Shown here piece by piece: positions 6,787 through 47,327 of a stretch of DNA of 64,000 bases. The stretch is from Sphingomonas sp. (GTDB lineage Bacteria; Pseudomonadota; Alphaproteobacteria; Sphingomonadales; Sphingomonadaceae), in assembly GCF_024508665.1 (NCBI RefSeq), contig NZ_JANINP010000006.1, forward strand, positions 1,230,001 to 1,294,000, given 5' to 3'. Under the pieces are notes generated by a model. The model was not told the origin of the DNA. It searched no databases and saw only the letters and a list, made by a program, of their open reading frames with translations. Made by a program: the position numbers and the translations under genes. Positions within the stretch are counted from its first letter, which is position 1. Every line of letters begins with the position of its first letter.

Positions 6787-7716
6787 ATGACCCGGCCGGT
6801 GGACGATTCCCCGATGCCGGTCAGCGACGCGTTGCTCGAGCAGGCCACGCGTTGGCATGCGCGCCTCGCCGACGCGCCGGACGATGCGGGTCTGCTCCGC
6901 GCTGTCGAAGACTGGAAGGGTGAGCATCCCGATCATGTCGCGGCGTTCCTGGAAGCTGGCAAGCTCTGGGCCTTGCTGGGGCCGGTGCCCCGAACGCGCC
7001 GGCCGCCGTCGCGTCGCGCGATAGGGTTGGGAATGGCGGCGGCCGCCGTCTTAGCGGTATTCCTCGTGCCTGGCTTCGGCCATGCCCTCGAGAATTGGCG
7101 CAGCGACGTCGCGACGCCCGTGGGGCAGGTTCGTACGGTCGATCTGCCCGACGGTAGCCACGTCACCTTGAGCAGCGATACCGCACTTGCGTACGAGGCC
7201 GGGCCCGGAGGGCGCACGGTGCGTATCCTTCGCGGAGAAGCGTTTTTCGCGGTCGAGCATGACGAGGCTCGCCCGTTCCGGGTCGATGCCGGCAATGCCC
7301 AAGTGACCGTGCTCGGGACGCGCTTCGACGTCGACCTCGCCGGCGATCGGACGCGCGTCACGGTCGAAAGCGGCAAGGTGCGTCTGGACGGACCGAGCGG
7401 CCGGGCGTTCCTGTCCGCCGACGAGCAAGGTGTCGCCGATGCGGTGCAAACCGTCAGCAGATCGGTCAACGCCGCCGACGCCACCGCGTGGCGATCGGGA
7501 CGGGCGGTCTTCTTCGACGCACCCTTGACCGAAGTGGCCCGCGTGCTGTCGCGCTATCGTGCCGCCGGCATATACGTCCTGGGCGCGAAATTGCGCGCGC
7601 AACACGTAACCGCCTCGTTCCGGACCGATGACGACCAGGGCATGATCGCGGCGCTCCAGGTCGGTACCCGGGCGCATGTCACGACGCTCCCCGGCGGGAT
7701 CGTCTTGCTGTATTGA
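6787..7716 (+). CDS. FecR-like anti-sigma factor
   Basis: WKGEHPDHVAAFLEAGKLWALLG, TM segment, TVDLPDGSHVTLSSDTALAYE...GEAFFAVEHDEARPFRVDAGNAQVTVLGTRFDV. Confidence 0.9.
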   Translation: MTRPVDDSPMPVSDALLEQATRWHARLADAPDDAGLLRAVEDWKGEHPDHVAAFLEAGKLWALLGPVPRTRRPPSRRAIGLGMAAAAVLAVFLVPGFGHALENWRSDVATPVGQVRTVDLPDGSHVTLSSDTALAYEAGPGGRTVRILRGEAFFAVEHDEARPFRVDAGNAQVTVLGTRFDVDLAGDRTRVTVESGKVRLDGPSGRAFLSADEQGVADAVQTVSRSVNAADATAWRSGRAVFFDAPLTEVARVLSRYRAAGIYVLGAKLRAQHVTASFRTDDDQGMIAALQVGTRAHVTTLPGGIVLLY

Positions 7717-7838
7717 CCTTGGCGGGCATTCGGCCATGCAGGGTCGGAAATATTTCCGGGCGGACTAGGGGACGAGCCGCCTGAATCGAGTCACCCCCAT
7801 GGCGGCCCAACGAATGGCCGTGCCATTTTGAGGGGGTT

Positions 7839-10640
7839 TTGATGTACAAGACGAGCCGTGCCACGCAATTCAAGCTGGCCTTGCTCTCCATGAGTGCGCT
7901 CGGCGCGCTCGCATTGCCTGGCGCCGCCTGGGGCCAGGCTGCCGCTTCGGCGTCGCAATCGACCTACGACTTCAACATTCCAAGCCAGTCGCTCGCGCGC
8001 TCCCTGAGCGCGATCGCCGAACGCGCGAACATCCAGGTCATCTATCCTGACAAGCAGCCGAACGATATCGTCGCGCCAGCCGTCAAGGGCACGATGACCG
8101 TCGAGCAGGCGCTGGCAACGGCTCTGGCCGGCTCGCCTTATACGTTCAGCTTTCCTCGGCCGGGCGTGGTGACGCTGGTTGCCGCCGGTGGTGATGGTGC
8201 CTCCGGCGAGCGTGTCCTCGGAGCGGTGCGCGTCCAGGGATCTCAGGTTGCCGGCGGCAGCCTGGCGGGATCGACGCCGGTCAATGGGATCAACGGATCG
8301 CGTGACGTGACGGCGACCGAAGGAACGGGGAGCTATACGTCCAACGCTTTGACGGTGGGATCGAAAACCGCAGCGTCGATCAAGGACACGCCTATGTCGG
8401 TGTCGGTTCTCACGAGCCAGCGCTTGCAGGACCAGAACATCACCGACCTCAATTCGGCGATGCGTAACATGCCGGGCATCACCGTCTACAACCAAGGCTC
8501 TACCGACAATTTGGGCTTTTACTCGCGCGGCTTTCGGATCACGCAGTTCCAATTCGATGGCGGCGCGCCGATGAACATCAATCCGAGTGGCGCCGGCTAT
8601 AGGCCGGTCATCGACCTGTCGCTCTACGACCACATCGAGCTCGTTCGCGGAGCAACGGGAACCTTCAATGCCTATGGTGACCCCGGAGGCGTGGTCAATC
8701 TGGTGCACAAGAAGCCGCTCGATCACCAGCAATTCACCCTCGATATGCAAATCGGCAGCTGGGATTGGCATCGGATCAGTGCGGATTTGACCGGTCCGCT
8801 CGCCTTTGGCGGCAAGCTGCGTGGTCGATTGATAGCAACGCACCAGGACAATAATTTTTTCTACAAGGTAGCCAACTCAAACCGTAACGTGGTGTCTGGA
8901 GGCCTCGAATATGACCTCACGTCTTCGACGTTGATTAGTGTTGGGTTAAATTATCAGAAGAACAACGAGCTACCATTTATCGGCGGGTTAATGCGATATA
9001 GCACCGGAGAGCCGCTCGGCCTGCCGCGCTCAACCTGTTTGTGCTTCAACTTCGCCAAGACAGATACCGAAAATAAGGAATTGTTCGGCCAGATCGAGCA
9101 GCGAATCGGCGCAAAATGGACAGCAAGGCTCAAGGCAACTCGAATCAAACAGGACGCTATCTCGATTTATCCGACAGTTACCGGGGAGCTCAATCCGAAT
9201 ACGCGCGACGATCCGAATGCTCTAACCGGCATCTATGCTGGCACAGATCAGTATTATTATTTACATGATCGGCAGACCATGCTCGAGGCGACATTGGATG
9301 GTTCATTCCGCATGTTCGGACGAGGCCAGAAGATAGTAGTTGGCGCGAACTATTCCATGGAAAACCCTGCGGGATCCGCCAAGGGCATCGGCTACGATAT
9401 TTACACCGGCGATTTCATTCCCTTTCCAGGAAAGCAGCCGTACGCCGGATCAGATGTTGATGTGTTTCATTTCGACCCAAATGAGTGGTTGGAGCCTACA
9501 TTCCCAGCAGGATTTTCTGGCAAAACAATCTATGGCGATTATCGCTATCTGAATGTCTATGCGAATTTAGAGCTAACACCGATAAAGAGACTACATGTTT
9601 CAACCGGTGTGCGCTATTCTGCTTATCGGCAACGCGGGCTCAAGCAATTTGTCTGCGATTTATATTCAGTGCAAGACTCGTCTGGCCCCTGCTTTGGCAA
9701 GCAAATCGGTGAGCTGACGTTCTTCAAATACGGTGAGTCGATTGGATCCCAATATAAGGGTCACTCCTTTTCCTGGCCGCCATCGGTGCAATGGCATTAT
9801 GATATCACCGACAACCTGAGTGGTTCTGCGATCTACACCGACATCTATATCGACCAGTCGAGCAAGCTCGACAAATCAGGCGCACCTATGCCGCCGGTCA
9901 CGGGCAAGAATTTCGAGGGTTCTCTTCGATGGGCTTCGCCAAGCGCCAAGCTCAATGCGGGCTTATCGGTATATTATACCAAGCAAATCGGATATGCCGC
10001 TGACGATCCAATTTGCCAGGGCGACCAGCGCGATCGCCGTTGCACCAATGGGTCGACACGGAACTCCGGGCAGTTGAACGACCAGAAGAGCTGTTGTTAT
10101 ATTTTCAATCCTAATCAGCAAAACATTAGCTATGGCGCTGATTTCGAGATTTCGGGCGAAATCAGTCGTGGATGGCAACTTTCGACAAGCTATAACTATA
10201 ATTACACTTATGTTAAGAACAGCCAGCTACCTGACGGCCGGCCCGCGCCGCTCCTGTCTTTCGCACCGCGGCATCGGTTCCAGCTATGGACGAGCTACAA
10301 TTTTTCCGAGACCTCACGGTTTAATGGCCTGTATTTTGGCTTCGGAGTTCAGGCGCAAAGCGAAACCTTTCAAACCGGTAGCTATTGCGCATCATATGTT
10401 GTCGATCCCAGCAACGGCTATTCCAATTGCACCGCGTGGGTGGATTATGCATTCACGGATCCGGGCCGGGTCGTCCTTAGCGGGGCGGTGGGGTATAAAG
10501 TCAATAATGTGCTGCGGCTCGACCTGCAGATGGAGAACCTGCTCGACAAGACCTACTATGAGCAAGTTGGAGGTACGACCGGGGGTAACTGGTATGGTAG
10601 TCCTCGCAGTTTCAAGCTGAGCTTGCACGGTAAATGGTAG
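7839..10640 (+). CDS. TonB-dependent receptor with N-terminal STN domain
   Basis: Signal peptide, STN (YDFNIPSQSLARSLSAIAERANIQVIY), plug, C-terminal YYEQVGGTTGGNWYGSPRSFKLSLHGKW. Confidence 0.95.
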   Translation: MMYKTSRATQFKLALLSMSALGALALPGAAWGQAAASASQSTYDFNIPSQSLARSLSAIAERANIQVIYPDKQPNDIVAPAVKGTMTVEQALATALAGSPYTFSFPRPGVVTLVAAGGDGASGERVLGAVRVQGSQVAGGSLAGSTPVNGINGSRDVTATEGTGSYTSNALTVGSKTAASIKDTPMSVSVLTSQRLQDQNITDLNSAMRNMPGITVYNQGSTDNLGFYSRGFRITQFQFDGGAPMNINPSGAGYRPVIDLSLYDHIELVRGATGTFNAYGDPGGVVNLVHKKPLDHQQFTLDMQIGSWDWHRISADLTGPLAFGGKLRGRLIATHQDNNFFYKVANSNRNVVSGGLEYDLTSSTLISVGLNYQKNNELPFIGGLMRYSTGEPLGLPRSTCLCFNFAKTDTENKELFGQIEQRIGAKWTARLKATRIKQDAISIYPTVTGELNPNTRDDPNALTGIYAGTDQYYYLHDRQTMLEATLDGSFRMFGRGQKIVVGANYSMENPAGSAKGIGYDIYTGDFIPFPGKQPYAGSDVDVFHFDPNEWLEPTFPAGFSGKTIYGDYRYLNVYANLELTPIKRLHVSTGVRYSAYRQRGLKQFVCDLYSVQDSSGPCFGKQIGELTFFKYGESIGSQYKGHSFSWPPSVQWHYDITDNLSGSAIYTDIYIDQSSKLDKSGAPMPPVTGKNFEGSLRWASPSAKLNAGLSVYYTKQIGYAADDPICQGDQRDRRCTNGSTRNSGQLNDQKSCCYIFNPNQQNISYGADFEISGEISRGWQLSTSYNYNYTYVKNSQLPDGRPAPLLSFAPRHRFQLWTSYNFSETSRFNGLYFGFGVQAQSETFQTGSYCASYVVDPSNGYSNCTAWVDYAFTDPGRVVLSGAVGYKVNNVLRLDLQMENLLDKTYYEQVGGTTGGNWYGSPRSFKLSLHGKW

Positions 10641-23968: not shown

Positions 23969-26900
23969 TCAGCGGGAGGCAGCGATCGCGCTGCTCGCCT
24001 GGTTGCCCACCGCCGTTGCTGCGAGCTGATTGCCGGTGATCGCGACGGTGCTCGCTTGCAGGGCTCCCGTCGCCATCCGGTAGCCGCCCGAGATTTGCGC
24101 GCTCACCGAACCGGTATTGACCTGACGGCTGGCAAGGCCGAGCACGTCGCTTGTCGCCGCAATGCTGTTGGTCGCGCTGTTGCCATAAGCAGTGGCCGAC
24201 TTGACCGCAGCTTTTTCGGTAAGGACTGAATTCGTCACGATGCCGTTGAGCGGGGCGGCAAGTCCCGTGACCGACGCCGCGATGGCGGCGCCATTATACT
24301 GCGCACTCGCCAGCGCGACATCGCCTGTGACCGTATCGTTCGCGATTCCGCCCGGTACGGTGGCAGCGGTCCCTGCATCGATGCTGTTCTCCGCCGTGTT
24401 GCCGCGCGCCAAGGCCGTCGTGCCATTGCCTTCCATATCGATCATTGAACCCGTCACCTCTGTCGCGGTCGCAGGGTTTGGAGCCGAAGCCGAAGCGGTC
24501 ACCGTCGCAAGATTGGATTGGCTGTTGGCCAGCGCCAGGCTGGCGCGCGTGATGGCCGATCCTGCCTCCAGCGTGTTGAGCGCGCGATTGCCGGCGGCTT
24601 CGGCGGCCTCGCGATTGTCACTGATGGTCAGCATCGAGCCCGCGATCCGGCCATCGCTGCCGGCAGCGCCGAGGCTCGAGCCGCTATCGGCCTCGACTCG
24701 CCCTTCGGCGAATTGCTGGTTGGCAAGGGCTGCATCCGCCTGCGCGAGTGGAGCGACCAAGGGAGCTGCCGAAGCGCTCGCGGATGCGGCAGTGGCCGGT
24801 TGCGCGCCGACGCCGGTCAGGATGTTGGTGGCGTCGTTCATGACCGCGAGCGCGCGATTGTCGTTGCCGGTGATGGTAATATTGGCATCCGCGGCATTGG
24901 CCGGGAGCACGGTCGCCGCCTCCGAAGATGCCGCGACCAAGGCATTGCCATATTGGAAGGACGACAGTGCAGCGCCGCTGGTGCCGCCGGCATCGAGCGC
25001 GTTCGCGGTCATGTTGCCGAGCGCCTGGGCGCCCTGGTTGTTGCCGGTTATGGCCAGCGTGGATTGGGCGGTGTCCGGTGCGTCGATGCCGCTTCGCGTC
25101 GCGACATCGGCCGACACCGCCGTCCTGATCACGCCTGACGGGTCGGGTTCCCCCAATGTCTGGTGGTTGCCGATCACGAGATCGCCTTCGGCGCCATAAG
25201 AGTCGCCGGTCGGGCCTGCCAATGCGGGATGTGAGGCGCCTAGCATCGGAATGGCATCCGCCGATGGGGCCGGGTTGCCTTTTGCGGCCAGCGCGTTGGT
25301 GGCCATATTGCCGGTCACATAGCCTGCCACCACATTATCGCCGATCGTAAGCACCGATCCGGTCACGGTATCCCCCGCCGTCACTCGTTCGCCGGCGGGC
25401 AGGCCTGGCGCGCCGAGTGCTATTGTCACATAGCCGTTGCCCGACTGAAGATTGGCCAGCGCAGCGCTGGGCGCCGTGCCTGCCGAGGTCAGGGTCAGCG
25501 CATTGTCGGTGTCGTTGCCCACGCCGCTTGCGACCGTGCTGTTGCCGGTCAAGGTCGCAACCCCGTCCGAAAGACCTTGGCCGAGCGAGATTTGTTCGCC
25601 GGCAGCGGCGATCGAGGCAGCGATGGTGCTGCCATCAAAGCTTTGAGCAGCCTGGATCACCGCCTGGCCATCGGCATACGCGTTCTCGTCCGCCGAGACG
25701 AGGGCGGACGCTGGACGTGCGCTGCCCGACCCCGTTGCCGTCTCGAGGTCGAGCCGGCTTTCGGCCCTGTTCGCCGCCGCGGTAGCGGCAACGCTGTTGT
25801 CGGCAAGCGAAAGGCGCGAATCCGTCGCCGCGCCCCCTATGTCGATCCCGACGCCTCCCAGCGTGTCGGCCCGGATCTGGGCGCCGCCCGCATGCTGGAC
25901 CTGGGTCAAGGCGGCCCCGGGCCCGTCGCCTTCGAGCGCCGCAGCGGTCAGATCGAGCGCTGCGGCTGCGCGGTTGCCCGTGGCCGCCGCCGTCAAGCTG
26001 TTGGTATTTGCCACGATGTCGCTTGTTGTCGCGCTGCTGGACGAAATTCCGAAAGTGGGACCCGCGACCTGACCATCCTCGGTCATGTTGCCGGTTCGCG
26101 CCTTGATGAGACCGGTTGCCTGCTGGACGCCGAGCATGGCGAAACCTGCAGTGCTCGAAGCCGATCCGTCCGCCGTTCCTACCATGCTGGCTGTTACGCC
26201 GCTCGTGGCAGAAGGCGCCAGGACTGCACCTTGGACAGATAGCGTCAGGGTCGCATCATTGCCCAAGGCCTCGCCGGCAATGGCGTTATCGGCGAGCGAG
26301 ACCGATGAGTCCGTCAGGGCACCGGTGCCGATCGTCATGTCCTCGAAGATCCGTGCCGCGGTCACCGCAACGTTGGAAAGCGGGGCCGCGGACTGGGTCG
26401 AGACCATGCCGGCGCTCGCGGATGATGCGGCACCCGAAAGATCGAGCGAGGCGCTCGCCGCATTGGCGATCGCCGATGCCGTCGTGTCGTTGGACTGAAG
26501 GGCGAGGCTGCTGGCCGTCACGTCGCTTGCAGCAATTGCGATGGGCGTATCGAACGCGTCCGCGGCAAGGCTTCCGGCCATTCGTTGGGCGTTGGCGACG
26601 AGCATATCCGCTTTTGCGTCAACGGAAGCGGGTGTCGCGGCGAGGCCGGCCGGGCCGAGCGCAGCGTCGCTGGTGCCGCCGGTCTCCAGCGATTGCCCCG
26701 CGTCATTGCCGCCTATGGCGGCCTTGATGTCGTTTCGTGCGACCGTGACGGTCGATCCCGTTACCTCTCCATGGTCGCTCGCGACGGGCGCGCCGTCGAT
26801 GTCGGCAAGCGAGAGCGCGGTCGACAGCCTCTGGTCGTTGCGGAGCATCTGTTGGCCGCTCGTCAACGTCGTGGTCTGCCCATGAGCCGGTGTCACCGCG

Positions 26901-26977
26901 AGGATGCCGGCCAGGGTGAACCCCGCCTGGGCCGAAAGCCGGCGGCGCATCTTCGAGAAGGGGCGTGTGTAATTCAT
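23969..26977 (-). CDS. hfaD: Large repetitive secreted protein, HfaD-like holdfast anchor / curli-like beta-strand-repeat protein
   Basis: Signal peptide; about 13 copies of (S)xLxIxxNxxxAxAxGNxAxNxLxA; third gene of hfaA-hfaB-hfaD-like order, 4-nt overlap with CsgG-like gene. Confidence 0.65.
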   Translation of the reverse strand: MNYTRPFSKMRRRLSAQAGFTLAGILAVTPAHGQTTTLTSGQQMLRNDQRLSTALSLADIDGAPVASDHGEVTGSTVTVARNDIKAAIGGNDAGQSLETGGTSDAALGPAGLAATPASVDAKADMLVANAQRMAGSLAADAFDTPIAIAASDVTASSLALQSNDTTASAIANAASASLDLSGAASSASAGMVSTQSAAPLSNVAVTAARIFEDMTIGTGALTDSSVSLADNAIAGEALGNDATLTLSVQGAVLAPSATSGVTASMVGTADGSASSTAGFAMLGVQQATGLIKARTGNMTEDGQVAGPTFGISSSSATTSDIVANTNSLTAAATGNRAAAALDLTAAALEGDGPGAALTQVQHAGGAQIRADTLGGVGIDIGGAATDSRLSLADNSVAATAAANRAESRLDLETATGSGSARPASALVSADENAYADGQAVIQAAQSFDGSTIAASIAAAGEQISLGQGLSDGVATLTGNSTVASGVGNDTDNALTLTSAGTAPSAALANLQSGNGYVTIALGAPGLPAGERVTAGDTVTGSVLTIGDNVVAGYVTGNMATNALAAKGNPAPSADAIPMLGASHPALAGPTGDSYGAEGDLVIGNHQTLGEPDPSGVIRTAVSADVATRSGIDAPDTAQSTLAITGNNQGAQALGNMTANALDAGGTSGAALSSFQYGNALVAASSEAATVLPANAADANITITGNDNRALAVMNDATNILTGVGAQPATAASASASAAPLVAPLAQADAALANQQFAEGRVEADSGSSLGAAGSDGRIAGSMLTISDNREAAEAAGNRALNTLEAGSAITRASLALANSQSNLATVTASASAPNPATATEVTGSMIDMEGNGTTALARGNTAENSIDAGTAATVPGGIANDTVTGDVALASAQYNGAAIAASVTGLAAPLNGIVTNSVLTEKAAVKSATAYGNSATNSIAATSDVLGLASRQVNTGSVSAQISGGYRMATGALQASTVAITGNQLAATAVGNQASSAIAASR

Positions 26978-27972
26978 CGGATTTCTCCAGTCGTGAGGGG
27001 AGGATGAGGAGTGCCATTCGAACCCGCCAGCAGGAGGTTTGACGGTTCCGGCCGACGGGCAGGCTTATTGGAGGCCGGGGCAGGGGCCCTGTCCCACCAG
27101 TCCTGCCGCGCAAGGCAAGGCGCGGGGTCGCTCTGGGTCGCGGCCGCCACCAGCTGGAGCGTCGCTTCCTCGAGCGCGGTGCGAATGCCGAGCTGGAGCG
27201 GTTCCTGGCCCTTGGCCCCGAGATTGATGTCGAAATGCGTCGAGCCGAAGAAGCGGAACAGGTCGAACCCGACTTCATAGCCGGTGAATTGCTTGGTCAG
27301 GCTCACCGTCTTCACGACGAGCAGCGAGCGCGTGTCGACGATCCTGAGGTCGATCGCGACCGACTGGGTATAGGTGCGTGCCTTGGGACCGATCTGTCCG
27401 GCCCGCGCCTCGGCACCCTTGGAACGAATGTCGTAATTGAGCTCGGTGATGCCGCCGACGATGAAATAGTCAGAGGCTGCGATACTGCCGCCATAATAAG
27501 GCAGCCAGGCAACCGGCGCCGCGCCTGGACCGGGTGTGTGCCTGGCCCCGTCGCCCAATTGGCGATGGTCCATATAGGCGAGTTCGCGCTCGGCGACCGC
27601 GGGATCGAACCGCTCGGCGATCCGGATGCCGGGCGCAAGCTTGCCGAGCGCCGAGCTCACCATCAAGGCGCCGCCCTGGGTGATCGCAGCACCCTCGTCG
27701 ATCGCATATTTGCCGGTATAGTCGCGCACGTCGCCCACCGCGATGACCGGCGGCCTTACCGAGCGGGCGGCAAGCCGGCTCGCCAGGCAATCGAGTGCCG
27801 GATCCATCGGTGTGCGATTGTCGCGCGCAGGTCGCCCGATCGGGGTCGGCGCCTCGCCGGGCGCCAGCCGTACCTCGTGAAGGCCCGAGCAACCCGGGGC
27901 GATCGCGCAGACGATGAGTGCACCGACGGCGCGCGCAACGCGCGCCCTCGGCATCGAGCGGGGCGCCATCAA
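26974..27972 (-). CDS. hfaB: CsgG/HfaB-family outer-membrane lipoprotein
   Basis: Lipobox-like IAPGC; VAVGDVRDYTGKYAIDEGAAITQGGALMVSSALGKL..IRIAERFDPAVAERELAYMDHR; ADYFIVGGITELNYDI; SVAIDLRIVDTRSLLVVKTVSLTKQFTGYEVG; CsgG-like. Confidence 0.85.
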   Translation of the reverse strand: MMAPRSMPRARVARAVGALIVCAIAPGCSGLHEVRLAPGEAPTPIGRPARDNRTPMDPALDCLASRLAARSVRPPVIAVGDVRDYTGKYAIDEGAAITQGGALMVSSALGKLAPGIRIAERFDPAVAERELAYMDHRQLGDGARHTPGPGAAPVAWLPYYGGSIAASDYFIVGGITELNYDIRSKGAEARAGQIGPKARTYTQSVAIDLRIVDTRSLLVVKTVSLTKQFTGYEVGFDLFRFFGSTHFDINLGAKGQEPLQLGIRTALEEATLQLVAAATQSDPAPCLARQDWWDRAPAPASNKPARRPEPSNLLLAGSNGTPHPPLTTGEIR

Positions 27973-28538
27973 TTGAGCACCCCAAAGGCGCAGGCGCTGG
28001 CATTCTCGACCCGCGATTGCTGGTCGCCTTCATTGGCTTGCTCGGAATTGAGCGCTTGCCAGGCGGTGCCCGTCACCGACGTCCTGGTCGATCCGGCAAG
28101 CGTGGACGAGACGGCGCCCAAATTGTGCTGGGCGCTTCCCATCGAACTCCCGGTCGTGCCGCCGTCGATAGTGGCCGCGTTCGCATTGCCCGTCGCGGTC
28201 GCTGTGGCGCCGGTCGTGCTCGGCGAATTGGCGAGCGCTGTCTGGCTTCCCTGATTGCCGGTCGCCGTCGCGCTCAGCGAGCAGACATATTGGCGATCGA
28301 TATTGGTCGTGTAGCTGGGCGTCGCATAGGCGCCGCCGCGCTTGCGCTCGATGAGGTCACTGAGCGCCGCCTTGGCGGCAAGCTCGCTCGCGGTCGCGAA
28401 CTGCCAGGCCCTGTTCTCGTTGAGATTGTTCGCCGATGCGGTGCGCGGAAGCGTCGCGACCGCAAGCGCGACGATGATCGTGAAGGCGAGGGGGCGGGAT
28501 CGGACATAGCCGGTCGCCGGCATGAGATAAGAGCGCAT
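27969..28538 (-). CDS. hfaA: HfaA-like secreted curlin-related protein
   Basis: Signal peptide then NNLNENRAWQFATASELAAKAALSDLIERKRGG...; ATATGN-type motifs; first gene upstream of CsgG-like gene with 4-nt overlap. Confidence 0.65.
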   Translation of the reverse strand: MRSYLMPATGYVRSRPLAFTIIVALAVATLPRTASANNLNENRAWQFATASELAAKAALSDLIERKRGGAYATPSYTTNIDRQYVCSLSATATGNQGSQTALANSPSTTGATATATGNANAATIDGGTTGSSMGSAQHNLGAVSSTLAGSTRTSVTGTAWQALNSEQANEGDQQSRVENASACAFGVLN

Positions 28539-28734: not shown

Positions 28735-29502
28735 ATGGCGGGCGAGCCGCCCAAGTGCTCCTTTGCGCGCATCCATTATCGATGCGGGGAACAGGAATTG
28801 ATCAGGGTCTTGCCCTTCGAGGATCGCGCGCGTGCGCCGCGCACTTTCGACACGATGTTCGAGGATCGCAAGCGGCTGTTCGTCGACTTGCTCGGTTGGG
28901 ACGTGCCGGTCGTCGACGGCCGCCTCGAACTCGATGCCTTCGACACGGACGGTGCGCTTTATGTGATGGCGCTCGATGCCGACGGGCGCCACCAGGGATC
29001 GCTGCGCCTTTTGCCGAGCGACCGGCCGCATCTCCTCGGCACTGTCTTCGCGCACCTGTGTCCGCTCGGCGTGCCGCAAGGATCCGGCATTTATGAGATC
29101 ACCCGGCTGTGCCTGCCTTCGCGCCTCGGCGCCCGCTGCCGGCTGGCGGTTCGCAATGCCCTCATCTCGGCGATGGTCGACCACGCCCTTCGTGCCGGCG
29201 TCACGCGATTGACCGGCCTGGTGGAAGAATCGTTTCGCAAGCATGTTCTGACCATGGGCTGGCTTGCCGAACCCCTGGGCCCGGCGATCGCCTCGGACGG
29301 TCAGCTGCTCGGCGCCTTCCAGCTCCACCTCGATGACGACACGCCCACACGGCTCGGTTGGACAGGTATCTATCGTGAGGGCGAGGGGCCGCATTTCGCC
29401 CCTCTGCCTGACGGTTCGGGCATGATCGGGCTGCTTCCCGAAGAGGGCGACGATGGGCCCGAACACTCGGGGGGCCAGGGCGCCGACGAGGATGCGAGGT
29501 GA
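28735..29502 (+). CDS. LuxI-family acyl-homoserine-lactone synthase (start may be TTG at 28797, MIRVLPFEDR...)
   Basis: MFEDRKRLFVDLLGWDVP, ELDAFDTDGALYVMALD, GSLRLLPSDRPHLLGTVFAHLCPLG, YEITRLCLPSR; canonical LuxI residues. Confidence 0.93.
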   Translation: MAGEPPKCSFARIHYRCGEQELIRVLPFEDRARAPRTFDTMFEDRKRLFVDLLGWDVPVVDGRLELDAFDTDGALYVMALDADGRHQGSLRLLPSDRPHLLGTVFAHLCPLGVPQGSGIYEITRLCLPSRLGARCRLAVRNALISAMVDHALRAGVTRLTGLVEESFRKHVLTMGWLAEPLGPAIASDGQLLGAFQLHLDDDTPTRLGWTGIYREGEGPHFAPLPDGSGMIGLLPEEGDDGPEHSGGQGADEDAR

Positions 29503-30273
29503 GCGCGCCTGCTTTCGACTGGCGCGATCCCCGGCCCTATCGTGCGCTGCTCGCCTGCGGTCGCCCCGGGCTCGCCTGGGAAGTCCTGCGCCGCGATCCG
29601 GCCTATCGCGATGCGGTACTCGGGTTGGCGCGACCGGGTTCGCGTACCGAATTGCGGCTGGTCCGGGCAGCAGCACCCGACTTCGTCGCGCGCTGGGGGC
29701 TTCATTTTCGCCGAGGACCCACTTTGTCCCGCCTGGGGCGCACTGCCGCTCTGGTCGGCAGCTGCCGATCCGGCGGTGCTCCAGGCGACAACCACGCGCC
29801 CGACCGGGAATACGGCGCTCTCGGCAGAACTTCTCCGGCACCACGATTGGCGGATCGCACGCGGAACGAACGACCATCTGGTGCTCGATGTCGGAAGCTT
29901 CGCGCTGCGGATCGATATTGCTGGCGGCAATGTTTTGGCCGCACCGCGGGATCTCTCTTTCCACCTGGGGCCGGCCAGAGGCTGGCGCGATCGGCTGCCG
30001 AGAATCCGCTCGATCCTGTCGGCTGCCGAGGCGGGGCGCGCCATTCTCCCGCCGCCACCCGAGCCAGGGCTTTGGCGCGCCATCATGGCGCTGCGCACGC
30101 TCGATGCACTGGCTGCGGGTGCGAGCCTCCAGACGATCGCCCGCGACCTGCTCGAAATCGACGATTGGCCAGGCCCCGGCGAGTCCGCCAAGTCGCGCGC
30201 CAGGCGACTGGTGTCGCGCGCCGGGCGCTTGCGCGACGGCGGAAGCTTGGCGGTTCTTGCCGGACGGCTGTGA
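29499..30273 (+). CDS. FseA-like DUF6499+DUF2285 regulator, expressed as a fusion only by +1 frameshift at TTT-C (29706-29709)
   Basis: GTGA overlap with luxI. Frame 0: AFDWRDPRPYRALLACGRPGLAWEVLRRDPAYRDAV...ARWGLHF; +1 frame: AEDPLCPAWGALPLWS...LRIDIAGGNVL...LWRAIMALRTLDALAAGASLQTIARDLLEIDDWPGPGESAKSRARRLVSRAGRLRDGGSLAVLAGRL (DUF2285). Confidence 0.8.
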
Positions 30274-30483
30274 CGAAGCGGGGCGTCCGGGAGCGGAGTT
30301 GGGAAATTATGCTGACGAGAACTATTTCAAGGACAGAATTATAGAAAAATGAACCAATAATAACGCCAATTTGGCTTAATATTTGAAATTTTCGCCGAGC
30401 GAAAAATATTAACTATTGGGATTGCGGGAAAAGAAAAGTTGGATCGTTTCTGGCATGACTTAATTTATCGGGGATTATTTGAA

Positions 30484-30837
30484 ATGCGTTACCTGATCGG
30501 GTTCGTTATTGCTTCCTGCGCCCTTGCGGCGTCGGGGCCTGCCGTGGCCAATGCGGCCGACGATGTTCTCACTCGCTCCACGACGGTCAAGGTGAGCGAT
30601 CTCGACCTGACCAAGCCTGAAGGCGTGGCGATGCTCGATGGGCGGATCAAGATTGCCGTGCACAAGGTCTGCATGGAAGTCGATTCGAGCCTGCACGCGC
30701 GGGCGCTGTCGTCCCGTTGCATGCGTGAGGCCAAAGTCATGGCATTCCGGCAGCGGGATCTCGCCATTGCCCGCGCCGAAAATGGCGCGGGCGCGACCAA
30801 GCTTGCCTCGGCGAACGGCAGCGCAGCGTCGCGCTGA
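30484..30837 (+). CDS. UrcA-family protein
   Basis: Signal peptide; STTVKVSDLDLTKPEGVAMLDGRIKIAVHKVC...RCMREA. Confidence 0.8.
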   Translation: MRYLIGFVIASCALAASGPAVANAADDVLTRSTTVKVSDLDLTKPEGVAMLDGRIKIAVHKVCMEVDSSLHARALSSRCMREAKVMAFRQRDLAIARAENGAGATKLASANGSAASR

Positions 30838-45372: not shown

Positions 45373-45939
45373 TCACGCGATGAAACCGATCTTGATGCCC
45401 GCAGCTTGGCAGACGGCAAGGACGCGACCGATCTCGAGCGTCGGCTTGCCTTTCTCGAGTTCGATGAGGAAGCGGCGTCCGACCCCAGCGAGATCGGCGA
45501 AACGCTGTTGCGTCATGCCCATCGCGCGGCGTGCCCCGCGTACCTGGCGGCCGATATCGGCCGCCGAGCCGATCACCTTGGCCGAGCTGCTTTTCTCAGC
45601 CGGCTTGGTCACCGCTCGCTCGCGGTTGACCGGTTTGAGATCGCGGGGCGCTGCGCCGATCTGGTCGAGAACATCGCGCGCCGGTGAGCGATAGGCCGGG
45701 TTGAGTTCCGGCATGCTCAATTGCCGCTTGGTCTCGGCTGCCAGCCCCGCGGTAGCCGATGAGTTTTCAGTCAAGTTGGTCAAGCCCCGGGAGCTTGCGG
45801 CATTCGCGCGTGCCGCCGGTGCGTCGCCGACTATCGCACTAGGCGCGGTGAGACCGAGCGCCTTTTGAGCCTGGACGAGCGGATCCCTGGCCATGGCATC
45901 TGCCAGACGATCAAGAGGGGACTGAGGAGCGCGTGTCAC
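45373..45939 (-). CDS. XRE/HipB-like HTH protein with long N-terminal extension
   Basis: C-terminal IGRQVRGARRAMGMTQQRFADLAGVGRRFLIELEKGKPTLEIGRVLAVCQAAGIKIGFI is HipB-like; no hipA alongside. Confidence 0.75.
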   Translation of the reverse strand: MTRAPQSPLDRLADAMARDPLVQAQKALGLTAPSAIVGDAPAARANAASSRGLTNLTENSSATAGLAAETKRQLSMPELNPAYRSPARDVLDQIGAAPRDLKPVNRERAVTKPAEKSSSAKVIGSAADIGRQVRGARRAMGMTQQRFADLAGVGRRFLIELEKGKPTLEIGRVLAVCQAAGIKIGFIA

Positions 45940-46205
45940 TTAAGTTGTTCCCGTTCGGGCACTTTTAGAAGTGGCCGCCAGTAAAGAAATCAAGAATGTT
46001 CCTGATCGGGATCATTGCAGGGATAAACCAGCAATAGAGTTGAGTAGTCCCCGTTCGGGAACATCGAATTGGAGGCGCTCGGCAACCGCCATTGGTCAGC
46101 AACCGTCCGTTCGCCCCTGCTTGGTCATCGACAATGACTGGCTGAGACTTGGCGGTGCTTGGGAATTCTCTTTCGCCTGACTCATCGGTCACCGGCCTCT
46201 TGGCA

Positions 46206-47327
46206 CTATGCCGGGTCCGCTTTGACTAGCGAATAGCTCGTGCTGCGCCCGCCGGCCTCGTCTCGTACGAGCACGCCTTTCTTGACTAGATCAACTATGT
46301 CTCGCGAGGCCGTATCCTGGGAAGCCTTGGTGAGCTTGGCCCATTTGCTGCTGGTCAGTTTTCCCTCAAACCCGTTCAGCACGCGATTGAGGACTTTGCG
46401 TTGCCGGTCGTTCATCACGACTTGGGCGTGCTTTTCCCAGAAGTGCGCTTTCTCGAGCACGCCGCCGAGCAATTGGTCGGCCTGAGCGATGGCGCGAGCG
46501 AGGCAGTCAAGGAACCAGTCGAGCCATGTGGTGATGTCGAGATCGCTCTTCTGGGTGCGTTCCAGCATGTGATAATAATCGGCGCGCTCAGTCCGGATTT
46601 GTGCGGACATGCTATAGAAGCGCTGCGCGCTATTCTCCGACCGCGCGAGTGCCATGTCGGTGATGGCACGCGCGATGCGCCCATTTCCATCCTCGAACGG
46701 ATGGATTGTGACGAACCATAAGTGCGCGATGCCCGCCTTGAGCACTTGGTCGATCCCCTGGTCTGCTTCGAACCAGGCAAGAAATGAGGCCATTTCCGCC
46801 GGGATCAGACCTGCAGCAGGCGCCTCGAAATGGATTTTTTCCCGGCCAAAGGGGCCCGAGACGACTTGCATCGGGCCGCCTGCGTCCTCGCGCCATGTTC
46901 CGACGACAATCTTGTTGAGGCCGCTGCGTCCTGTTGGAAACAGCGCTGCATGCCAGCTGAGCAATCGTTCCTCGGTCAAAGGCTCGGCATAACGCTGGGT
47001 TGCGTCAAGCATCATGTCGACGACGCCCTCTACGTCGCGATCGGCCGGGACCAGGCCCACCACGTCCATTCCCAGCCGCCGGGCAATGGACGATCGGACT
47101 TGGTCAAGATTGAGATGCTCGCCTTCGATTTCGGAGGATTTGAGCACGTCCGCAGTCAGTGTTTCCAGGACGGCTTCGCTGCGCAACTGGAAGCCGAGCG
47201 ATTCCATTCGGCCGAGTAGACGACCCTGGCTATGACGCACCCCGGCCAGGCGCGCGGCAAGCATGTTGAGGTTCCACCGCAGGTCGGGCCAGGCACCTAG
47301 TTCATGGATATAGGTCATTCTCCGCAT
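46206..47327 (-). CDS. Fic-family protein (Fic/DOC with C-terminal winged-helix region)
   Basis: HPFEDGNGRIARA Fic motif; SSEIEGE inhibitory-helix motif; C-terminal ASRDIVDLVKKGVLVRDEAGGRSTSYSL. Confidence 0.92.
   Translation of the reverse strand: MRRMTYIHELGAWPDLRWNLNMLAARLAGVRHSQGRLLGRMESLGFQLRSEAVLETLTADVLKSSEIEGEHLNLDQVRSSIARRLGMDVVGLVPADRDVEGVVDMMLDATQRYAEPLTEERLLSWHAALFPTGRSGLNKIVVGTWREDAGGPMQVVSGPFGREKIHFEAPAAGLIPAEMASFLAWFEADQGIDQVLKAGIAHLWFVTIHPFEDGNGRIARAITDMALARSENSAQRFYSMSAQIRTERADYYHMLERTQKSDLDITTWLDWFLDCLARAIAQADQLLGGVLEKAHFWEKHAQVVMNDRQRKVLNRVLNGFEGKLTSSKWAKLTKASQDTASRDIVDLVKKGVLVRDEAGGRSTSYSLVKADPA

Follow-up and report, generated by a model that had tools for sequence, protein, structure and literature searches.

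FseA of ICEMlSymR7A is tied to quorum sensing through activation by TraR, and the AHL synthase gene traI1 lies upstream of it. Programmed +1 frameshifting within the FseA family is already a known phenomenon (Jowsey et al. 2023), and with 4709 homologues reported, about 61% of which carry a +1 site (PMC10359603), the mechanism is evidently widespread. In sphingomonads, by comparison, the gene beside luxR-luxI-phyH has hitherto been called hypothetical, and neither DUF2285 nor frameshifting is mentioned in the papers that describe such loci (PMC4288048, PMC3704786). Here we analysed a 64,000-nucleotide stretch of Sphingomonas DNA (the window) containing a luxI gene followed by a two-frame fseA. 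Our survey ties the frameshifted FseA switch, known from one Mesorhizobium ICE, to sphingomonad luxR-luxI-phyH loci and yields a candidate binding site that can be tested.

A two-frame fseA gene behind luxI

The two halves of the window fseA lie in different reading frames immediately downstream of luxI (Table 1), and the luxI stop codon overlaps the GTG start of fseA within the GTGA at 29499-29502. Judging from the usual length of LuxI N termini, the real luxI start is likely TTG 28795; on inspection, the R/F/W residues and later LuxI residues are intact. At the junction, frame 0 reads ctt (29700-29702), cat (29703-29705) and TTT (29706-29708); C follows at 29709, and the +1 frame resumes with GCC (29710-29712) and ends at TGA 30271-30273. 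Decoding TTTC as a single Phe gives one protein of 257 aa.

Table 1 Features of the luxI–fseA locus and the adjacent hfa-like operon.
Feature	Position	Strand	Evidence
Large repetitive protein, hfaD position	23969..26977	-	Position; gene order with hfaB conserved across most related hfa loci
hfaB-like (CsgG fold), divergent hfaABD-like operon	26974..27972	-	NF037935 HfaB E 2.5e-63 (214 bits, under the cut-off of 300); PF03783 E 3.4e-15
Small secreted protein, hfaA position, first gene divergent to luxI	27969..28538	-	Position and homologues beside hfaB
luxI (AHL synthase)	28735..29502	+	PF00765 E 2e-18
fseA 5' half, DUF6499 (AWEVLRRDP motif), GTG start	29499..29708	+	PF20109 E 3.8e-15
TGGGGG, Shine-Dalgarno-like, codes W-G ahead of slip	29694..29699	+	Same place in 57/76 shifted relatives
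TTTC, predicted +1 slip site (tRNA-Phe UUU to UUC)	29706..29709	+	TTT then C/T in shifted luxI-linked relatives
Frame-0 tail of unshifted product, Arg-rich, unconserved	29709..30344	+	ORF list
fseA 3' half, +1 frame: middle domain and DUF2285	29710..30273	+	PF10074 E 1.9e-8

Both halves carry recognizable domains, and AWEVLRRD in the window corresponds to the AWEFLRRN-like motif that marks the DUF6499 part of the family. Residues of 29499-29708 match positions 1-59 of the 60 in PF20109 (DUF6499), so this domain ends exactly at the slip, and the +1 half (29710-30270) matches PF10074 (DUF2285/RovC) above the cut-off. In alignments, the invariant W, E, R and R columns are retained in the 5' half and the invariant R199, D202, R235 and R236 columns in the 3' half; overall, the window FseA keeps every column that is invariant among ten aligned relatives, and the residues described as important in FseA (PMC10359603) are retained. 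We assessed the fold on a continuous relative, L079, as a proxy for the window protein. Its AlphaFold model (pLDDT 91.6) had RovC (6xz5) as the best and sole significant match in the PDB (E 5.4e-7, TM 0.59/0.69), with QseM (7uqt) as a weak structural match. A phmmer search of the sequence against the PDB returned nothing useful, RovC being too distant to be matched.

We then compared the slip site among luxI-linked relatives drawn from two sources, 101 genomes belonging to the same genus and 80 named loci in GTDB genomes. Both halves were present in 102 distinct genes, of which 88 are luxI-linked. The offset between the halves is +1 in 76 of the 88, 0 in 12 and +2 in none. All +1 shifts fall at the WGxxF codon (W-G-x-x-TTT), and the slip tetramer is TTTC in 72 relatives and TTTT in 4; in L145 the site was assigned by eye (WGLHF), the automatic pick being a wrong upstream TTTC. 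Among non-slip Phe codons, the share of TTT is 24% in a subset of the relatives' genes and 18% in the genes of the window. The conserved TGGGGG ahead of the slip has also been noted before (PMC10359603). Because the relatives are partly non-independent, we attach no exact probability to this pattern. Conservation of the site rules out random decay of the fseA frame, and the existence of continuous relatives shows that the fused product is the natural, working protein.

Frame-0 tails are unconserved, varying from 1 to over 400 codons. In L043, L082, L121, L133, L171-L173 and L175, the frame-0 stop comes one codon on (TTT CGC TGA or TTT CCC TGA), and L038 carries a tandem fseA pair, one member with a +1 site and one continuous.

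The original prediction, made from the window alone, withstood these comparisons in most respects. Its two-frame fseA, with halves joined by skipping one base at TTT-C, proved correct to the base; its direct linkage to luxI is borne out by the overlap and the PF00765 match; and the profile search placed DUF6499 before the slip and DUF2285 after it, which together with the conserved +1 site upholds the FseA-like identity. The proposed slip at UUU-C agrees with the offset shared at the same codon by 76 of 88 luxI-linked relatives, whose alignment conserves TTTC, and the scattered frameshifts that would have spoken for a decayed gene were not seen, with 0 of 88 relatives showing another offset. 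Frame 0 is open to 30344, as described, but the range of tail lengths among relatives means that this does not set the window apart. Judged by its sequence, the window gene is an FseA-family activator, predicted to be made via +1 programmed frameshifting.

Relatives of the window unit and its solo position

The FseA tree establishes the ancestry of the window unit, which groups with Sphingopyxis luxR-luxI-phyH-fseA loci (99/88). In this nearest Sphingopyxis clade, an rdfS-like HTH gene lies downstream in 5 of 6 cases and traF with a transglycosylase gene in 6 of 6, the same set that forms the FseA-controlled operon in R7A (PMC11963761). The window LuxI shares 54-61% identity with its counterparts in codirectional luxR-luxI-phyH-fseA loci, which also hold its nearest LuxI relatives. 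The window FseA itself sits on a long branch (0.99) with a best identity of 42%, which would also fit relaxed constraint; relatives carried by known plasmids share only about 30-34% identity, and no close orthologue was found among 295 genomes of the genus.

Most relatives reside in element-like regions that also encode ArdC, DUF2958 and ParB; frequently, rdfS, traF and transglycosylase genes follow at a greater distance. One layout is a codirectional luxR-luxI-phyH-fseA, often followed by ArdC-DUF2958-ParB; in the other, fseA-ArdC-DUF2958-ParB is divergent from luxR-luxI-phyH, which is followed by lasso-peptide-like genes. Such a cluster, comprising GntR, Transglut_core3, Asn synthase and S9 isopeptidase-like genes, adjoins luxR-luxI-phyH, divergent from a mostly frameshifted fseA, in L041, L042 and L066 as well as in many of L095-L155; searching the literature for lasso peptides together with luxI in sphingomonads turned up no paper. 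In most codirectional loci, fseA is also followed by the gene of a conserved protein only about 85-95 aa long (for example, L080 about 7600-7865; L058), which has no Pfam or NCBIfam match and could be a regulator.

The window unit is set apart from this company. No luxR, phyH or transfer genes are adjacent to it, nor are ArdC, DUF2958, ParB or rdfS; no proteins of an ICE of its own occur in the window plus 40 kb of flank on each side, and the nearest integrase is about 113 kb away. The window fseA is thus not on an ICE or conjugative element and has no element in cis. Within the window there is no rdfS and no FseA-box-like site, and a strict-palindrome search for a lux box gave no shared motif and no convincing candidate. 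Downstream of fseA lies a UrcA-family small secreted protein (30463-30834), and elsewhere in the window (45373-47327) a Y4mF-type antitoxin-like HTH gene stands beside a Fic/DUF4172 gene. The original suggestion that attachment to an ICE had been lost holds for this copy; the genome's second luxR-luxI-phyH-fseA unit, however, does lie on an ICE. This solo position is unusual, and the surprise is the separation of regulator from element more than the frameshift itself.

We favour, at a probability of about 0.88, the reading that the window holds luxI and a two-frame fseA of an ICE-type module, now solo, making an FseA-family activator; the absence of an adjacent luxR counts against it. The unit descends from a regulatory module, luxR-luxI-phyH-fseA, that belongs to ICE-type elements. 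Under this reading, luxI and fseA would form one transcription unit, putatively under quorum control. Having read the DUF6499 half, ribosomes would pause near UGGGGG, and in some of them tRNA-Phe would slip in vivo from UUU to UUC (+1), giving an FseA-family activator of transcription, 257 aa long, with DUF6499 and DUF2285. Ribosomes that stay in frame would instead add an unconserved tail to DUF6499, and this product is presumably inactive. The shifted product would presumably activate transcription at a target, with activation of excision as its candidate role.

Candidate targets and alternative readings

Exactly two DUF2285 matches occur genome-wide, both FseA-type, and a separate small DUF2285 protein of the kind that would serve QseM antiactivation was not found in the genome. 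The second copy belongs to the ICE on contig C6 (about 733-776 kb), which has TraG and trb genes, with its integrase next to tRNA-Leu. There are also two rdfS-like genes in the genome. An element on contig C7 carries rdfS, traF, TraG and trb genes together with an FseA-box-like site. We recognized this site as an inverted repeat, GTGTCGRAA...TTYCGACAC, which precedes rdfS at 17 of the 43 loci with a hexamer spacing of 16, 19 or 20; in the R7A FseA box, 16 bp separate two hexamers in inverted orientation (PMC10359603). Background matches to the loose pattern number about 0.4 per genome, and we trust only the RA...TY form. Across 101 genomes this strict form has 13 matches; 8 of these lie no more than 9 kb from a DUF2285 gene, and 2 are in genomes lacking DUF2285. 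The genome studied here has exactly two candidate boxes, both situated about 110 bp or less ahead of an rdfS, with a spacing of 16 on the C6 ICE and 20 on the C7 element.

This pairing of two DUF2285 genes, two rdfS-like genes and two box-like sites raises the possibility that the window FseA targets the fseA-less C7 conjugative element in trans. In keeping with this, luxI, luxR, fseA, ArdC and ParB are absent from C7:1-80000, and the C7 spacing of 20 fits the Sphingopyxis elements nearest the window FseA (19-20), whereas a spacing of 16 goes with the ICE copy and its close relatives. Yet spacing 20 is present in other clades too, the ICE FseA could serve both boxes, and C6 and C7 could be joined, which would shorten the apparent distance, although their ends have no sequence in common with each other or with other sampled ends. 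The argument is circumstantial, the box itself coming from this analysis, and we consider such targeting less likely than not. The fuller proposal, that a quorum-sensing and frameshift regulator split from its element controls the excision of an fseA-less element in trans, is more doubtful still. With two FseAs facing two rdfS promoters on different elements, inter-element cross-talk is directly testable in this genome.

Other accounts dispense with an active regulator or give it another task. One extra T read into an ordinary continuous gene would find a precedent in the 12 continuous relatives, but these reflect four changes on the FseA tree, in few clades and none in the window's own, and 76 relatives from many genomes share the shift at the same codon; slip-site conservation leads us to reject sequencing error as exceedingly improbable. 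A decaying element remnant, with its sequence intact and its function gone, would accord with the solo position, the long branch and the lack of a close orthologue in 295 genomes. Because both halves remain open with all columns invariant among ten aligned relatives kept, the slip site is exact and the LuxI residues are intact, we consider such a remnant unlikely. Domestication would have luxI-fseA control the hfaABD-like adhesion operon that lies divergent from and adjacent to luxI, tying holdfast-type anchoring to cell density. The proteins at the hfaD and hfaA positions have no family match, and in L206, L211, L212, L213, L215 and L216 the neighbours of an hfaABD-like operon are type IV secretion genes of the trb set; holdfast-anchor genes thus appear to travel with conjugative elements, and the whole neighbourhood of luxI-fseA may be island-derived. 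That association weakens the case for recruitment, since proximity may reflect shared island ancestry. There is no box-like site between hfa and luxI, and only one other retrieved locus has hfa near luxI, leaving domestication distinctly improbable.

Comparison with known systems

RovC of Yersinia (6xz5) shares the fold and the DUF2285 domain, although it regulates a type VI secretion system and its sequence lies beyond the reach of phmmer. The sphingomonad luxR-luxI-phyH-X loci (topology T, PMC4288048; phyH linkage, PMC3704786) represent the same luxI lineage and locus type, and their published hypothetical gene X beyond phyH probably lies where fseA sits here; the window differs from them in having no adjacent luxR or phyH. 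Another close counterpart is FseA (msi172-msi171) of ICEMlSymR7A in Mesorhizobium japonicum. In the window, the copy is off an ICE and without an adjacent luxR, rdfS or QseM-like gene, and the luxI stop overlaps the fseA start. Both systems nevertheless share an upstream AHL synthase gene, the DUF6499 and DUF2285 domains, and a +1 frameshift, predicted in the window, after a UGGGGG-coded WGL.
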